Shown here: piece after piece, positions 6,168 through 16,877 of the stretch
Position numbering within the stretch: position 1 is the stretch's first letter
Layout of the letters: every line of letters begins with the position of its first letter
Assembly: GCA_030055595.1 (NCBI GenBank)
Contig: JASFYH010000003.1
Coordinates: forward strand, 1 to 64,000
Reading direction: 5' to 3'
Source: Archaeoglobales archaeon
GTDB taxonomy: Archaea; Halobacteriota; Archaeoglobi; Archaeoglobales; Archaeoglobaceae
Length of the DNA: 64,000 nucleotides
Translations under genes and position numbers: made by a program
The notes under the pieces: model-generated
What the model was told of the DNA's origin: nothing
Databases searched by the model: none
What the model saw: only the letters and a program-made list of their open reading frames with translations

Positions 6168-6855
6168 AAGCCAAAGCTTCTTGAATTGCCTTCTCAACAG
6201 CCTTTTTGTGTGCATTTGCAGCCTTATGAATTCCACCTTGCAATCCCCGCGAAGCTATGCATGGAAAGATCTGTGTGTAGTAGCCCGCCTTAGAAGGGGC
6301 TTCCTCAATGCGCAACCCTTTGATCTTCTCCGCAACATAGTATGTGGATCCGCAAAATGAAGATCTTTTCACCTTAACATCTTTTATAACTCCATTTTCA
6401 ACTTCTATTTCAAACTCGGGGCTTCCAAAGAGCTCAAAAAACTCCGAGCCTTCGATCTTTGGAGTCGTGCAACAGATCTCCTCCCAGAAGACTCTAACAC
6501 CAACTCTGTCTCCTTCTTCCTTTAGCTGTTTGTATGATCCGCTTTTAGCTCCACCAGAGACCACAACGATTTTAACTCCTCTTTCTGAAGCCTGTCTTAT
6601 TAGCTCAAGGTTTAGATCTGGGTGAAGGAGATAGGAAACGATCAGCTCTGGTTTAAAGTCCTCAGGTAAATTCAAGTAATCTCTGGGATTTTCTATCAGT
6701 GTCGGAAGCTCTGTGTTAACTTCATAAACTTTAACCTCAAAGAACTTCGAAAATAACTCTATTGCCCTTCTGTTTTTCCCCTTTTTTACAACTACCCCGA
6801 TCTGCATAGCTTTTCGATCTCTGCTTTTATCTCTATAAAAGGCTTTAAATCGCAT
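6154..6855 (-). CDS. DUF166 family protein
   Basis: SYLLHPDLN, VVSGGAKSGSYKQL, EICCTTPKIE, FPCIASRGLQGGIHKAANAHKKAVEKAI. Confidence 0.75.
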   Translation of the reverse strand: MRFKAFYRDKSRDRKAMQIGVVVKKGKNRRAIELFSKFFEVKVYEVNTELPTLIENPRDYLNLPEDFKPELIVSYLLHPDLNLELIRQASERGVKIVVVSGGAKSGSYKQLKEEGDRVGVRVFWEEICCTTPKIEGSEFFELFGSPEFEIEVENGVIKDVKVKRSSFCGSTYYVAEKIKGLRIEEAPSKAGYYTQIFPCIASRGLQGGIHKAANAHKKAVEKAIQEALASKSY

Positions 6856-7544
6856 ATTTTGTAAGGAGGGACATTGCTAATGTCTGCTTTTATGAAACAT
6901 TCACTGAAGGGCACCTTTCCCAGAATAGGATGTTTTATTCTTTCGAGCAATTTTTTAGCGTCTTCAGACTCAATGAATTTATTGACAACAACCGCTATTC
7001 TCTCAATTCCTATGTCTTTTGCGAGTTCTTCGATCCTTCCAAGTGTCTCAAAAGCTCTGCTTCCCGGTTCAACAACCGCAATGAGCAGATCGACACCTCT
7101 TGCGGTTCCTCTGCCAAGATGTTCAATTCCCGCTTCCATGTCTAAAATGAGGATGTCCTTTTCCCTAAATATTGCGTGCCTTAGAATTGCCCTCAAAAAG
7201 GCATTTTCTGGACAGAAACAACCCTCTCCGCCCTTCTCAATCGTTCCCAAAACTAAAACTCGGACACCATCTTCGTTATAGGCTGAATAAGCCTCAAAAA
7301 TATCGTCAACCTTAGGATTGAGCTTGTAAGTTCCTAAAGGCCCAATTACACGCTCTTCTATGATCTCCTTCAATTCAGAAAGTGGTTTCAATTTGCTCCT
7401 TATTCCAAGAGCGGAAGGCAGGTTCATGGCAGTGTCACAATCGATTGCGGTAACTCTATAACCTCCTCTGGCAAATAAATGTGCAAGGATTGCGGAGAGT
7501 GTTGTTTTTCCAACTCCTCCTTTGCCCGAGACGGCAATTTTCAT
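6792..7544 (-). CDS. CooC-type MinD-like ATPase (nickel/CO dehydrogenase accessory)
   Basis: MKIAVSGKGGVGKTTLSAILAHLFA Walker A; CFCPENAFLRAI; LDMEAGIEHLGRGTARGVD. Confidence 0.85.
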   Translation of the reverse strand: MKIAVSGKGGVGKTTLSAILAHLFARGGYRVTAIDCDTAMNLPSALGIRSKLKPLSELKEIIEERVIGPLGTYKLNPKVDDIFEAYSAYNEDGVRVLVLGTIEKGGEGCFCPENAFLRAILRHAIFREKDILILDMEAGIEHLGRGTARGVDLLIAVVEPGSRAFETLGRIEELAKDIGIERIAVVVNKFIESEDAKKLLERIKHPILGKVPFSECFIKADISNVPPYKICDLKPFIEIKAEIEKLCRSG

Positions 7545-7646
7545 AGAGCAAAGTCTAAATAGGCGTATAAAAACTTTTAGGTTTTACATGATAAGAATCG
7601 TTAGAATGGATAAATTTTAAATATTGGATTGATTAAAGATTATTCG

Positions 7647-7937
7647 ATGCTAAATGTGACAGAGATCTATTCAAAACTTGGAACGGGATTTTGCATAATA
7701 AAAGATGGTAAAATTTTGGAAAGTTATCTGCTGGACAATACTCAGAGCCAAAAATTGGACATGGTGGCTAAAATAACCGCAGTGCTTCCAGAAGACTTCG
7801 AGGCGGGTATTTTGGAATTTGACATAAAAAACATGTTTGGAGCGATTAAAATGGAAGATAAAATAGTTATCTTCCCCGTTAAAACTGACAACTTGGGTGA
7901 GATCCTTAAAAGAAAGGGTGCTTTGTATGAAGTATAA
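7647..7937 (+). CDS. Small protein, possible roadblock/LC7-like fold
   Basis: ORF 7629-7937, likely start MLNVTEIY; residue pattern consistent with a roadblock fold; first of four overlapping genes. Confidence 0.6.
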   Translation: MLNVTEIYSKLGTGFCIIKDGKILESYLLDNTQSQKLDMVAKITAVLPEDFEAGILEFDIKNMFGAIKMEDKIVIFPVKTDNLGEILKRKGALYEV

Positions 7938-8256
7938 ATTCTACGTTTTGCAGATTGATGGAGAGATCAGCAAAGAGGGGATTGAGGATCTGGAGCTATT
8001 TAAGAAACTTAAAGAGTCTGAGGTAAAAAAAGCAATTCTCATGGGAAAAGAGACCGCAATATATTTCGAAACATTTGAAAAGAAGTCTGTGATGGTTGGC
8101 ATAGAGAAGAGTTCTGCTGGAGCAGCGAGATTGATCGCTAGAAAACTTGCTTTTGGGAGTAAAAAGAAGATCGATCTCATTTCGATTGAAGAAGCCTTTG
8201 AATTCGCAAAGAAAGTTGAAAATGCAGATCTGGATGAATTAGCAAAATTAAGGTGA
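7927..8256 (+). CDS. Conserved-looking protein of unknown function
   Basis: ATG at 7927 overlaps the end of the upstream gene (MKYKFYVLQIDGEIS); no family recognised. Confidence 0.6.
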   Translation: MKYKFYVLQIDGEISKEGIEDLELFKKLKESEVKKAILMGKETAIYFETFEKKSVMVGIEKSSAGAARLIARKLAFGSKKKIDLISIEEAFEFAKKVENADLDELAKLR

Positions 8257-8261
8257 TCGGA

Positions 8262-8768
8262 ATGTTGTATGAAATACTGAGCGTCCTGTTTGGTTTTGGG
8301 ATCGGGTTTATCGTTACTTGGAGGTTCGTCGAAATAGGGGTTAGAAGAGAAGAAGAGAAGATCGGAGAAGCAAGAAAAGTTAAGATCGCAGAAGTTGCTG
8401 GAAAAATTGAAGGCACTACCGAGACTTTGCCAGAAAAAATGCCATCTAACTTAGATGAACTTCTGAAATACATAAGCGGAAAATACATGCTCTCTGAGGT
8501 GACCCTTCTAACTCCTGACGGTTTGCCAATCGCCTCGAATAGCTCAACACCAGATGAAGACACCGCAAATGCTCCAGAATTCATAAAAGTAGCAAATCAA
8601 CTGCTAAACTCTGACAGAATTGTGCTTGCTGGAGGGGATAATCGAGTTGTGGTGCTACAGATCAATCCTGACGTAATACTATACGCAAAAATTGCAAGAG
8701 AGTTATCTCGACCTGAATTGGAGAAATTGAAGAGTGAGGTGAATATGAGCTTGGAGGGGTTAATATGA
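8262..8768 (+). CDS. Membrane-anchored roadblock/LC7-like protein
   Basis: N-terminal TM (LYEILSVLFGFGIGFIVTW) then LDELLKYISGKYMLSEVTLLTPDGLPIAS...VVVLQINPDVILYAKIAREL. Confidence 0.7.
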   Translation: MLYEILSVLFGFGIGFIVTWRFVEIGVRREEEKIGEARKVKIAEVAGKIEGTTETLPEKMPSNLDELLKYISGKYMLSEVTLLTPDGLPIASNSSTPDEDTANAPEFIKVANQLLNSDRIVLAGGDNRVVVLQINPDVILYAKIARELSRPELEKLKSEVNMSLEGLI

Positions 8769-9403
8769 TTGCCACGATCTTGCTTTCAATTCTGATCTTC
8801 TCAGTCAGCGTTGGTGAAAACGTCACCATTCCTGTAAATGAGCATACAATATTGAGAGCAGAGGATCCCTGTATGTATTTCAACAAGACTCTGAGCAATG
8901 TGGCTGAAGTTGAACCCGGAGAACATATACTTCAGATCGGACTGAATTGTTCAGAAGGAATAAAGGTTGTTTTTGCCAATGAAAACAGGATTGCTGCGAT
9001 CTCTGTTTCTCCAGCTAAACCAGAAAAAATTCAGAATTACGCTTTATATCTTGAAAAAGAGTTTAGAGACTCCGGAGTAAAATATAACATGCTGGCGGAG
9101 GAACTTAATAAGATCTCCAAGAAACTGAAAGAGGTTGAAGAAGAGAATTCAAAACTTAAAATCGAAAAAACAGCACTTGAAACTGAATTAAAGGGAATGA
9201 AGGAAAGCTACGAACTGCTTCAGGGTAAATACACTGCTTTAAGTCACAATCTTGAGAGTGAGAAGAGCAAAGTCTCTCAGATGGAGCTTGAACTCAAAAG
9301 TCTATCCGCACAAAGTGCCACATATAGGATCACGACGCTCTTCCTGATCTCGATCTTCATTGGCTCATTCACCGCAACCGTAATGATGCTACGTAGGCAC
9401 TAA
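8765..9403 (+). CDS. Secreted/membrane coiled-coil protein (N-terminal signal, C-terminal TM)
   Basis: Hydrophobic N-terminus, long heptad-rich segment, C-terminal TM YRITTLFLISIFIGSFTATVMMLRRH; ATGA overlap with the upstream gene. Confidence 0.65.
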   Translation: MIATILLSILIFSVSVGENVTIPVNEHTILRAEDPCMYFNKTLSNVAEVEPGEHILQIGLNCSEGIKVVFANENRIAAISVSPAKPEKIQNYALYLEKEFRDSGVKYNMLAEELNKISKKLKEVEEENSKLKIEKTALETELKGMKESYELLQGKYTALSHNLESEKSKVSQMELELKSLSAQSATYRITTLFLISIFIGSFTATVMMLRRH

Positions 9404-12509: not shown

Positions 12510-15500
12510 GTGAATCCACTTCGCCTATGCATTCTATTTGCATTTGTTTTGGCGATTTTCACTGTAGAAGTAATTGCAGAGAGTCCGCAGAAAACTCCGG
12601 TGGGTTTTGAAAAGATTGGGATTCCAATACACAGAGATTTTCTTTCAGACAAACTTTCGAAGTTGCAAAAAACTGATTTGCACATGCTAAAGGAAAAAAA
12701 TGCGGATAAGATAGGAACACTTTCAGAGAAAGTTAGAGAGAAAAAGATAGTAAAACTTCCAACGGGTGAAAAAGTCGAAGTCGGGATCACAGATAAGGCG
12801 GAAATCTTTGTTTTATCTGCGGATGAGAACGTTAAAGTCATGGAAAGGCTCGCGATTCCCAGAGACGTGGATTTGAGGAAAGTGGATGAAAAGCTTTTCA
12901 ACGTTGAGGCTTTGATAAAAGAGGGCTATGCAGATTCTGAAAGGATTCCTGTAATAGTTGTGGCGGAGAAGGAGAAGATGGGAAATGTTGAGGGAGTTGC
13001 AAAATCGCTTGGAAAGGCAAAGAAGTTCGAAATAATTCCCGCAATCTCTCTGGAAGTGAAGAAGGGGGATGATTTCAGAAAACTGCTTTCGATCGATGGA
13101 GTAAAGAAGGTATGGCTGGATAGAAAAGTAAGGGCTTTGCTCAGCGATAGCGTTCTGCTGATAAATGCGACCGAAGTCTGGAACCTTGGATACAACGGTT
13201 CCGGCGTTAAAATTGCAATACTCGACACAGGAATAAACTCCAGCCACGGAGATTTTTACTTTGAAGATGGAACGTCGAAGATAATCTATTCTGTCGACCT
13301 TACCGATGACGGAACTGCTGAAGATTTAAATGGGCACGGAACGCACGTTGCGAGCATCGCAGCTGGAACTGGAAAAGAGACTGGGCTTAAAGGAGTTGCT
13401 CCTGGCGCTTATCTGATGAACGTAAAGGTTCTCAATCGAAATGGCGAAGGATATGAGAGCTGGATAATTCAGGGAATAGAGTATGCGGTCGAAAATAAAG
13501 CAGATATAATAAGCATGAGCCTTGGAAGCATTCCAACTTCTGGAGAAGATCCCCTAAGCCTTGCATGCGATGCGGCGGTTAAAAATGGCGTAATCGTTGT
13601 TGCTGCAGCCGGAAATTATGGAGGCTATTACACGATCTCGTCTCCGGGTTCTGCAAAGAAGGTTATAACCGTTGGGGCAACGGATAAAACTGATCAGATC
13701 GCACCTTTTAGCAGTAGAGGTCCAACTCTTGATTATAGAGTCAAGCCGGAGGTAGTTGCACCGGGAGTTGAAATAGAGGCTGCGAATTATCAGGGAGGAA
13801 CTGCAGTGATGAGTGGAACGAGCATGGCAACGCCCCATGTTTCCGGGCTTGCAGCGCTGCTCAAGCAGGCAAGAAACGTGGATCCGGAGACTGTTAAGAA
13901 CATTATAGCGAGCACGTCAGTCTTGCTTGATTACGATGTCTTTACACAGGGTGCGGGTAGAATAAATGCTCTTGCTGCAATAAATACCGAGCTAATTGCC
14001 GAGCCAGCTGTTGTTAGCTTGGGAGTTGCGAATCAAAAGAACTTCACGATCTCATTTAGAAATCTGAACAGCTCCGCAGATATACCGATCTCGATAATTG
14101 CGAACTCGAACTGCAACGTCTGGCTTAACAGAACAGAGCTTTTAATCAAAGCAGATTCAAAGGCGGAAGTCGAGGTCGGCGTTACCGCTGAAGATCAGAG
14201 ATTCTGTAGTGGTATAATAGTTACGAACTACACGGTCAATGGTTCAGATGTTCACGCAGTTTTCGGAATGGTTGTTCCTGTAAGCGAGGAAATAGATAGC
14301 TGTAGGGAAATAACCCAACCCGGATACTACAGGCTTAATCAAAGCATTTCAGGGCTTTTAAGCGATCAGTATTACTGCATAGGAATATTTGCGAATGACG
14401 TTGTTTTAGACGGACAGGGATTTTCGATTACAGGCGATCAGAGTGGAGAGGGAACTGGAATTCTCGTTCAGGCTAACAACGTTACGATAAAGAATGTTGT
14501 CGTTTCTGGGTATATACATCCTTTAGGTCTTTATTTATGTGGCATCGGAATCGTTCTCCACTCTTCCAGTAACACCAAAATAGAGAACAGCACAATCTCC
14601 GGCAATTGTGGAAGCATTGTTCTAGCATATTCAAGTGACAATCTCATAGAGAACAACACGATCTCAGAAAATGAGTGTGGCATCGGTTTCGAGGCGTATT
14701 CTAGCAACAACATCATAGCTAACAATATTATCTCGAACAATGGAGAGGGAATCGATCTCGGGGATTCCAGCAACAACACCATAGAGAACAACACAATTTC
14801 GAACAATCAGTTTGGAATCGTTCTCGACTCTTCCAGCAACAACATCATAGCTAACAATATTATCTCGAACAACAATGAGGCTGGAATCCTTCTCTGGGTT
14901 TCCAGCGACAACACCATAGAGAACAACACGATCTCGAACAATGGGGTTGGAATCAATCTCTGGGGACTCGATCTCGGATCTTCCAGCAACAACATCATAG
15001 CTAACAATATTATCTCGAACAATGGAGAGGGAATCGATCTCTGGGATTCCAGCAACAACAACACCATAGCTAACAATACAATCTCGAACAATGAGGTTGG
15101 AATCTATCTCTGGGCTTCCAGCAACAACCTCATCTACAACAACCTTTTCAACAACGAGAACAACTTTGAGATATATGACTCAACAAGCACATGGAACACA
15201 ACTCTACAGCAAGGAACAAACATCCTTGGCGGAAACTGGCTTGGCGGTAATGCCTGGCTTAATCCAGATGGAACTGGCTATTCTCAGACCTGCGAAGACT
15301 CAGAAGAGCCAATAGGGATCTGTGATCAGCCCTATGTGATCGATGAGAACAACATCGATTATCTACCGCTTTCCATTGCTCCAACACAACCAAAGCCAGA
15401 TCTAATCGTTTCAGCGATCTCAATCGATCCAGAGCAACCAATCGTGAATCAATCAGTTACGATAAACGCAACAATAGCAAACATAGGCGAAGCAAACGCT

Positions 15501-16877
15501 GTAGCTTTTAACGTTAGCTTCTTTGTTAACGATAACTTGCTTGGAAAAGTTACGATCGAATCTCTGGAAGCCAATGGATTGACTTATGCAGAAATTAATT
15601 GGATTCCAGACTCGACTGGAAGCTACACGATAAAAGTGATTGCAGATCCTGATGACAATGTGCTTGAAAGCAATGAAAATAATAACGAGAACTCAACAAC
15701 TGTGAAAGTTGTCGCTCCAGATCTAAGAGTTTCAGAGATAAAAATCCTCGTTGGCGAAGAAGAAGTTAGTGAGATAACACTTGGAGAAACTGCAAGGATA
15801 AACGCAACAATAGAAAACATCGGCAATGCAAATGCGGGAGCATTCAACGTTAGCTTCTATGCAAACAACGCCTTAATAGAAAAGGTAAGAATTGACGGTC
15901 TCAATGCAGATGGATCAGCGATTGCAAGCATTTCATGGACTCCAAGCTCAGCGGGAAGCTATGTTATAAGAGTGGTTACGGATTCGGAAAACGAAATTAC
16001 CGAAAGCAATGAAGCGAACAACGAGAGCTCAGTAACTGTGAAAGTCGTTGCACCACCAACGCCTACACCAACACCAGAACCAACACCAACACCAGAACCA
16101 ACTCCAACTCCAGAACCTACACCAACACCAACACCAGAACCAACTCCAACTCCAGAACCTACACCAACACCAACACCAGAACCTACACCACCAAAAACCA
16201 CTCCACGCCCCATAGTCGGCGGTGGTGGCGGTGGAGGAGGTGGTGGAGGAGTAATCCCGGGAGTGCCGATCTACATTAGCGACTGGATAAGGCTAAGGTC
16301 GAACAACAGCACAGACTTCACAATGCCCCAGAGTGCCTTCTGGGAAACTAACGTCGTTGCTTTAATTCTGCTGAGCGATGAAAACGTAAACGCAAAGCTT
16401 AGAATAGAGAAGAAGAAAGAACTCCCGTCTGATATTCCCGCCCCATCGGGAGTTATTGCCTTGATCCTGAGCATAGATCCGACTTTGAGCACAAAGGCTA
16501 ATTTAAGTGGCAGAATACAGTTCGGAATTCCAATCGAAGAGATCAAAGCCAAAGGCTTCGATCCAAACCTTGTTGCGGTAATTCTGCTCAAGTGGAACGG
16601 AAAGCAGTGGATCGAGTTGCCAACCAAATTCTTGAGCAGTGATGGAAAATACAATTACTATGAAGCAACAACTGAGAGCTTTAGTCTCTTTGCTGCAGTG
16701 CTAAAGCCTTCAGAGGCTCCAATACAGACAACACCGTCGATTTCAGTTGCAACGCCAGAGACTACACAACCAATTGCTACAACTCCAGCTGAGAAACCGT
16801 TCATTCCAGGCTTTGAGGCGATCTTTGCAATCGCAGGGCTCTTAGCGGTGGCTTATCTGATTAGAAGAAAGAATTAA
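12510..16877 (+). CDS. Subtilisin-like (S8) protease with NosD-like beta-helix repeats, two CARDB-like domains, PT-rich linker and PGF-CTERM-like tail
   Basis: Catalytic motifs AILDTGINSSH, NGHGTHVASIAAG, SGTSMATPHVSG; NTIxNNxISNN repeats; two CARDB-like repeats; (TPTPEP)n; C-terminus PGFEAIFAIAGLLAVAYLIRRKN. Confidence 0.93.
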   Translation: MNPLRLCILFAFVLAIFTVEVIAESPQKTPVGFEKIGIPIHRDFLSDKLSKLQKTDLHMLKEKNADKIGTLSEKVREKKIVKLPTGEKVEVGITDKAEIFVLSADENVKVMERLAIPRDVDLRKVDEKLFNVEALIKEGYADSERIPVIVVAEKEKMGNVEGVAKSLGKAKKFEIIPAISLEVKKGDDFRKLLSIDGVKKVWLDRKVRALLSDSVLLINATEVWNLGYNGSGVKIAILDTGINSSHGDFYFEDGTSKIIYSVDLTDDGTAEDLNGHGTHVASIAAGTGKETGLKGVAPGAYLMNVKVLNRNGEGYESWIIQGIEYAVENKADIISMSLGSIPTSGEDPLSLACDAAVKNGVIVVAAAGNYGGYYTISSPGSAKKVITVGATDKTDQIAPFSSRGPTLDYRVKPEVVAPGVEIEAANYQGGTAVMSGTSMATPHVSGLAALLKQARNVDPETVKNIIASTSVLLDYDVFTQGAGRINALAAINTELIAEPAVVSLGVANQKNFTISFRNLNSSADIPISIIANSNCNVWLNRTELLIKADSKAEVEVGVTAEDQRFCSGIIVTNYTVNGSDVHAVFGMVVPVSEEIDSCREITQPGYYRLNQSISGLLSDQYYCIGIFANDVVLDGQGFSITGDQSGEGTGILVQANNVTIKNVVVSGYIHPLGLYLCGIGIVLHSSSNTKIENSTISGNCGSIVLAYSSDNLIENNTISENECGIGFEAYSSNNIIANNIISNNGEGIDLGDSSNNTIENNTISNNQFGIVLDSSSNNIIANNIISNNNEAGILLWVSSDNTIENNTISNNGVGINLWGLDLGSSSNNIIANNIISNNGEGIDLWDSSNNNTIANNTISNNEVGIYLWASSNNLIYNNLFNNENNFEIYDSTSTWNTTLQQGTNILGGNWLGGNAWLNPDGTGYSQTCEDSEEPIGICDQPYVIDENNIDYLPLSIAPTQPKPDLIVSAISIDPEQPIVNQSVTINATIANIGEANAVAFNVSFFVNDNLLGKVTIESLEANGLTYAEINWIPDSTGSYTIKVIADPDDNVLESNENNNENSTTVKVVAPDLRVSEIKILVGEEEVSEITLGETARINATIENIGNANAGAFNVSFYANNALIEKVRIDGLNADGSAIASISWTPSSAGSYVIRVVTDSENEITESNEANNESSVTVKVVAPPTPTPTPEPTPTPEPTPTPEPTPTPTPEPTPTPEPTPTPTPEPTPPKTTPRPIVGGGGGGGGGGGVIPGVPIYISDWIRLRSNNSTDFTMPQSAFWETNVVALILLSDENVNAKLRIEKKKELPSDIPAPSGVIALILSIDPTLSTKANLSGRIQFGIPIEEIKAKGFDPNLVAVILLKWNGKQWIELPTKFLSSDGKYNYYEATTESFSLFAAVLKPSEAPIQTTPSISVATPETTQPIATTPAEKPFIPGFEAIFAIAGLLAVAYLIRRKN
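14550..15140 (+). repeat. In-gene tandem repeats encoding beta-helix coils
   Basis: Alternating SSNNIIANNIISNN / SSNNTIENNTISNN units; near-identical DNA copies at about 14700-14800 and 14985-15070. Confidence 0.85.
16049..16198 (+). repeat. Low-complexity Thr-Pro-Glu linker repeat (ccaacaccaacaccagaa units)
   Basis: PPTPTPTPEPTPTPEPTPTPEPTPTPTPEP... encoded by short repeats, followed by a poly-Gly stretch. Confidence 0.85.

Follow-up and report, generated by a model that had tools for sequence, protein, structure and literature searches.

We have identified a four-gene cassette in a heat-loving Archaeoglobaceae archaeon that is probably, though far from certainly, part of a multi-roadblock membrane platform working with a MinD-1-type ATPase and not with a small GTPase. 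Gene content, gene order and predicted folds form the basis of this reading.

The window, the whole stretch of DNA that was analyzed, is 64,000 nt long. Within it the cassette genes, designated g1 to g4, lie consecutively on the + strand with the following features.

About 7616..7624, + strand: TATA-like element TTTAAATAT, the putative cassette promoter as judged from sequence.
7647..7937, + strand: g1, 96 aa, soluble, predicted roadblock fold.
7927..8256, + strand: g2, 109 aa, soluble, roadblock/longin-like core with conserved C-terminal helices.
8252..8257, + strand: GGTGAT, probable Shine-Dalgarno of g3, overlapping the g2 stop; proposed from the sequence and from the start position of homologs.
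8262..8768, + strand: g3, 168 aa, N-terminal transmembrane (TM) helix followed by a cytoplasmic roadblock domain; alternative start at 8253.
8765..9403, + strand: g4, 212 aa, N-terminal signal/TM segment, extracytoplasmic domain, coiled coil and C-terminal TM anchor.

A preliminary description of this DNA had placed the start of g1 at TTG 7629. The start is most likely ATG 7647 instead. The TATA-like TTTAAATAT is located approximately 25 nt upstream of it, and an element of the same type occurs approximately 25 nt 5' of the g1 ATG in L019, L020 and L021. Given this spacing, the cassette transcript is probably leaderless. The four genes had also been described as overlapping end to start throughout. 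This was borne out at the first junction, where g1 and g2 share 11 bp (7927-7937), and at the last, where the ATGA overlap of g3 and g4 (8765-8768) is 4 bp in 12 of 12 relatives with both genes intact. The middle junction was different, in that the "GTGA" at 8253 is more likely part of the Shine-Dalgarno GGTGAT of g3 than a start/stop overlap, and the start of g3 was therefore moved to ATG 8262. In the alignment of homologs, relatives of g3 begin at the equivalent ATG, so g2 and g3 are probably separated by 5 nt.

The order g1-g2-g3-g4 is kept in 10 Archaeoglobaceae genomes (the window genome and nine others), meaning that the homologs are syntenic and not scattered. Comparison with L019 gave dN/dS values of 0.168 for g1, 0.087 for g2, 0.062 for g3 and 0.110 for g4, indicative of purifying selection. 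In one genome, G004, g1-g2 are followed, close to the end of a contig, by a g3 with a frameshift, which suggests either damage to the cassette or an error in assembly; by eye, a TnpB-like fragment follows the frameshifted gene (L027:10129-11183). Downstream of the cassette, positions 12510-16877 of the window encode a subtilase-like protein of 1455 aa that is secreted, contains repeats and is anchored at its C-terminus; the corresponding gene of L021 is split.

Neither Pfam nor NCBIfam returned a match for g1, g2 or g3, and none of the three has a Robl_LC7 sequence match above the curated Pfam cut-off. Structures of g1 and g2 were predicted as AF2 monomers from small alignments of 11-12 homologs. 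The g1 model (pLDDT 88.6, pTM 0.80) has the topology a-bb-aa-bbb-a, and its best Foldseek matches are Ragulator and Asgard roadblocks at probability 1.00 with TMq up to 0.72, consistent with a roadblock fold as the preliminary description had guessed. The g2 protein, which is confined to 12 of the cassette genomes, had been left as unrecognised. Its model (pLDDT 80.3, pTM 0.62) contains a bb-a-bbb-a core related to roadblock with additional C-terminal helices, and it matches Ragulator, MglB and roadblock chains at probability 1.00 but with low TMq (0.40-0.52 among the best). It is thus predicted to be roadblock-like too, the case being weaker than for g1 and g3. Pfam, NCBIfam, hhalign and a PDB profile search found no sequence-level homology of g1 or g2 to roadblocks, so their assignment comes from predicted fold alone. 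Neither prediction returned an unrelated known fold.

For g3, hydropathy places a TM segment at the N-terminus, and the C-terminal domain aligns with the Robl_LC7 protein profile over 100 columns (P 3.3e-5), the score of 35.3 comparing with a maximum of 19.5 among 200 column-shuffled decoys. Its homolog in L032 reaches Robl_LC7 at E 0.03, below the cut-off. These results agree with the earlier view of g3 as a membrane-anchored roadblock-like protein. Taken together, the predicted folds of g1 and g2 and the profile match of g3 make three of the four cassette proteins look like divergent roadblock/LC7 proteins. As had been proposed, g4 is a coiled coil on the extracytoplasmic side, tethered by a C-terminal membrane anchor, judging from hydropathy, alignment and Pfam matches of coiled-coil type that fall below cut-off.

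The classical role of roadblock proteins is to regulate GTPases, and the preliminary description had noted that no Mgl/Arf-type GTPase is encoded near the cassette. This absence extends to the whole genome and to all 14 cassette genomes in a search with PF00025 (E<=0.001), the sole GTPase family model applied genome-wide; the window genome is 99% complete, and two of the cassette genomes are drafts at 73% and 84%. A system of the MglA/MglB type would fit the classical role if its small GTPase had diverged beyond recognition or were encoded at another locus, and nine sister genomes do have Robl beside an Arf-type GTPase domain. We nevertheless consider such a system improbable, given the missing PF00025 match. 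The nine sister genomes, two of which were read closely (L061 and L062), are without the cassette and carry an alternative GTPase-coupled roadblock system within Archaeoglobaceae. By genus, the cassette and the Arf-type GTPase exclude one another (four versus five of thirteen genera), a pattern that is not significant alone. In L061:4541-7154 and L062:5847-7955, Robl adjoins a protein that is KaiC-like in its N-terminal region and carries an Arf-type GTPase domain at its C-terminus.

The nearest NTPase in the window is a CooC-like ATPase (6792-7544, - strand). Its gene and g1 are arranged head-to-head in six congeneric genomes, as would suit a partner of the cassette. However, this ATPase occurs in 33 of 36 family genomes with or without the cassette (Fisher p 0.27), and in other genera and in the more distant G009 it is located away from the cassette. 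The CooC-like neighbor was rejected as partner NTPase since it does not track the cassette; this reading is largely refuted, and we give it very little credence. The likely partner is instead a MinD-type ATPase whose gene has a separate genomic location.

Co-inheritance points to this ATPase. The gene for g3 and that for DUF2226 occupy an identical set of 14 of the 36 family genomes (Fisher p 2.6e-10, phylogeny ignored), and a MinD ortholog is present in all 14 and in three more, G017, G027 and G028, that have no cassette (Fisher p 1.8e-7, phylogeny ignored). Three genera include both states, and g3, DUF2226 and MinD change together in each; only a broken MinD remnant is left in G002. The signal is specific, because neither CooC nor archaellin (missing in 4 of the 14 cassette genomes) nor CheW (missing in 5 of 14) tracks the cassette. 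The MinD gene of the window genome (G000:C11:140093-140893) and its Robl-DUF2226 genes are on contigs other than that of the cassette. This MinD matches TIGR01969 at 370 bits, above cut-off, has 1HYQ as its nearest PDB entry and falls in a clade separate from CooC. Like its relatives, it has a deviant Walker A motif, KGGTGKT, and an amphipathic C-terminal tail. By these sequence features, the co-inherited ATPase is of the archaeal MinD-1 type.

Gene order gives the link between cassette and MinD independent support beyond co-occurrence. G020 (L029) has a single run of g2-g3-g4-MinD, a gene for a 60-aa TM/coiled-coil protein, Robl and DUF2226. In G012 and G023, g3-g4 stand just before MinD, and in G042 and G051, both outside the family, a g3 homolog is immediately upstream of MinD. 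In five genomes in all, the immediate neighbor of g3 is thus MinD or g4-MinD.

The same evidence bears on whether the cassette might be a cell-envelope module associated with an S-layer and an RND-type permease, its co-occurrence with MinD being a by-product of shared gene content. Genes that, by eye, fit this description lie immediately upstream of the cassette in three genus g5 genomes, and g4 is extracytoplasmic.

L023:4095-8191, L024:9992-14110 and L025:10498-14576: S-layer-like and RND/MMPL-like genes upstream of the cassette in genus g5.

The arrangement is restricted to that one genus, however, and neither the adjacency of g3 to MinD or g4-MinD in five genomes nor the failure of CooC, archaellin and CheW to track the cassette would be expected of a by-product. 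We therefore regard an envelope module as a poor candidate and retain the MinD-linked platform.

From gene content and order, we infer that the system extends beyond the four-gene cassette and is dispersed, comprising also MinD, a canonical Robl_LC7 protein, DUF2226, usually a HAMP protein and often a further gene pair, g1'-g2'. The HAMP-containing membrane protein is encoded beside DUF2226 and nearly tracks the cassette (12 of 14). In L035 (5193-7083), the genes beside DUF2226 encode a coiled-coil protein that weakly matches CDC48_N, the HAMP membrane protein and a 67-aa protein; the HAMP membrane protein of this locus ends in HAMP, and no output domain was found in it. The overlapping g1'-g2' pair is present in eight of the genomes with the cassette and in none of those lacking it.

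L055:6417-7110, L056:6608-7283, L057:6551-7154, L058:7014-7632 and L060:672-1281: g1'-g2' loci.

The downstream member, g2', matches g2 in its C-terminal helical segment (hhalign P 2e-11), and homology of g1' to g1 was not significant. Several distinct roadblock subunits and an anchor are thus encoded, g1-g3 in the cassette and g1'/g2' and Robl elsewhere.

The following mechanism is hypothesized. The g1 and g2 proteins, perhaps along with g1' and g2', would form roadblock heterodimers at the inner face of the membrane, docked on g3. This platform would bind MinD at the membrane, which MinD would reach via its C-terminal amphipathic helix and perhaps also via the short TM/coiled-coil protein encoded adjacent to it. 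The platform would gate the ATP-dependent membrane cycle of MinD, as MglB acts on MglA or as Ragulator scaffolds Rag. It would also couple extracytoplasmic input, supplied by g4 or the HAMP protein, to how a surface machine is placed or how active it is. The suggestion that the cassette is a membrane sensing or positioning module is plausible under this mechanism. We propose more tentatively that a Ragulator-like complex of divergent roadblock subunits regulates the MinD-type ATPase, giving MinD a dedicated partner other than MinE. If so, roadblock platforms would not be tied to GTPases.

Among candidate cargoes of such a platform, type IV pili come first. In G051, the operon divergent from g3-MinD combines two Robl genes with those for a PilB3-like ATPase and two TadC-like proteins, and PilB3/TadC genes adjoin MinD in G044. 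T2SSF is found in nearly all genomes, so its co-occurrence is uninformative on the pilus link. The archaellum and chemotaxis were both rejected as obligate cargo on account of the distribution of archaellin and CheW. A hydrogenase-linked process is an alternative candidate cargo. Under that alternative the MinD-roadblock module would serve a [NiFe]-hydrogenase-type redox system and not pili, as an operon of this kind flanks the cassette or Robl in G020, G012, G042, G047 and G056 (two Archaeoglobaceae and three others).

L029:10809-13542, L038:4122-6869, L042:3763-6946, L043:9668-12769 and L045:7514-10656: [NiFe]-hydrogenase-like operon encoding a ferredoxin, small and large subunits and a small V4R-like protein (by eye).

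The large subunit in L029 matches PF00374 at 1e-34. In the window genome, neither Robl nor the cassette was seen to have such an operon as a neighbor, and the adjoining genes in G051 and G044 are those of pilus ATPases; hydrogenase cargo is consequently judged unlikely.

The MinD-linked platform resembles several known systems in part. As in MglA/MglB of Myxococcus and Thermus and in the actinobacterial conservons, where roadblock-fold proteins act on an NTPase in polarity, motility and signalling, roadblock-fold proteins are encoded here. Unlike those systems, no MglA/Arf-type GTPase was detected in the cassette genomes and a MinD-type ATPase is co-inherited instead, and the cassette has three divergent roadblock proteins, of which one is membrane-anchored. 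The eukaryotic Ragulator (LAMTOR)/Rag system likewise combines multiple distinct roadblock subunits and a membrane anchor, components that the cassette encodes. In Foldseek, Ragulator chains rank among the best matches for both g1 and g2, a likeness of predicted fold that stops short of establishing homology to individual LAMTORs. In contrast to Ragulator, it is a roadblock subunit, g3, that carries the anchor of the cassette, a TM helix.

The first archaeal MinD structures are more than 20 years old. The co-inherited ATPase is of the same type as A. fulgidus MinD-1 (PDB 1HYQ) and Haloferax MinD2/MinD4. Haloferax MinDs position surface machinery, and their partners are still unclear (PMC11588486). 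That study mentions no roadblock partner, and in the Archaeoglobaceae archaellin and CheW do not go with the cassette. A 2016 survey of archaeal type IV pilus accessory genes noted that FleN/MinD ATPases (arCOG00589) and roadblock proteins (arCOG02603) are encoded within or close to archaeal T4P loci (PMC4858521). Because of that earlier link, the broad archaeal association of MinD and roadblock proteins with pili is not new. In the part of the survey consulted, the two families are not tied to each other and no cassette of the g1-g4 type appears. The literature searched held no description of the cassette, of the triple roadblock set, of their co-inheritance with DUF2226 and MinD, or of the contrast with GTPase-coupled Robl in Archaeoglobaceae; DUF2226 itself was not mentioned in it.

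Many roadblock proteins have no coupled GTPase. In one survey this was the case for 328 of 749 MglB homologs, none of them characterised at the time (PMC4316618). The co-inheritance described here suggests what such proteins may act with, namely a MinD-type ATPase. The co-inherited roadblock platform is accordingly a testable partner candidate both for GTPase-less roadblock proteins and for archaeal MinD.
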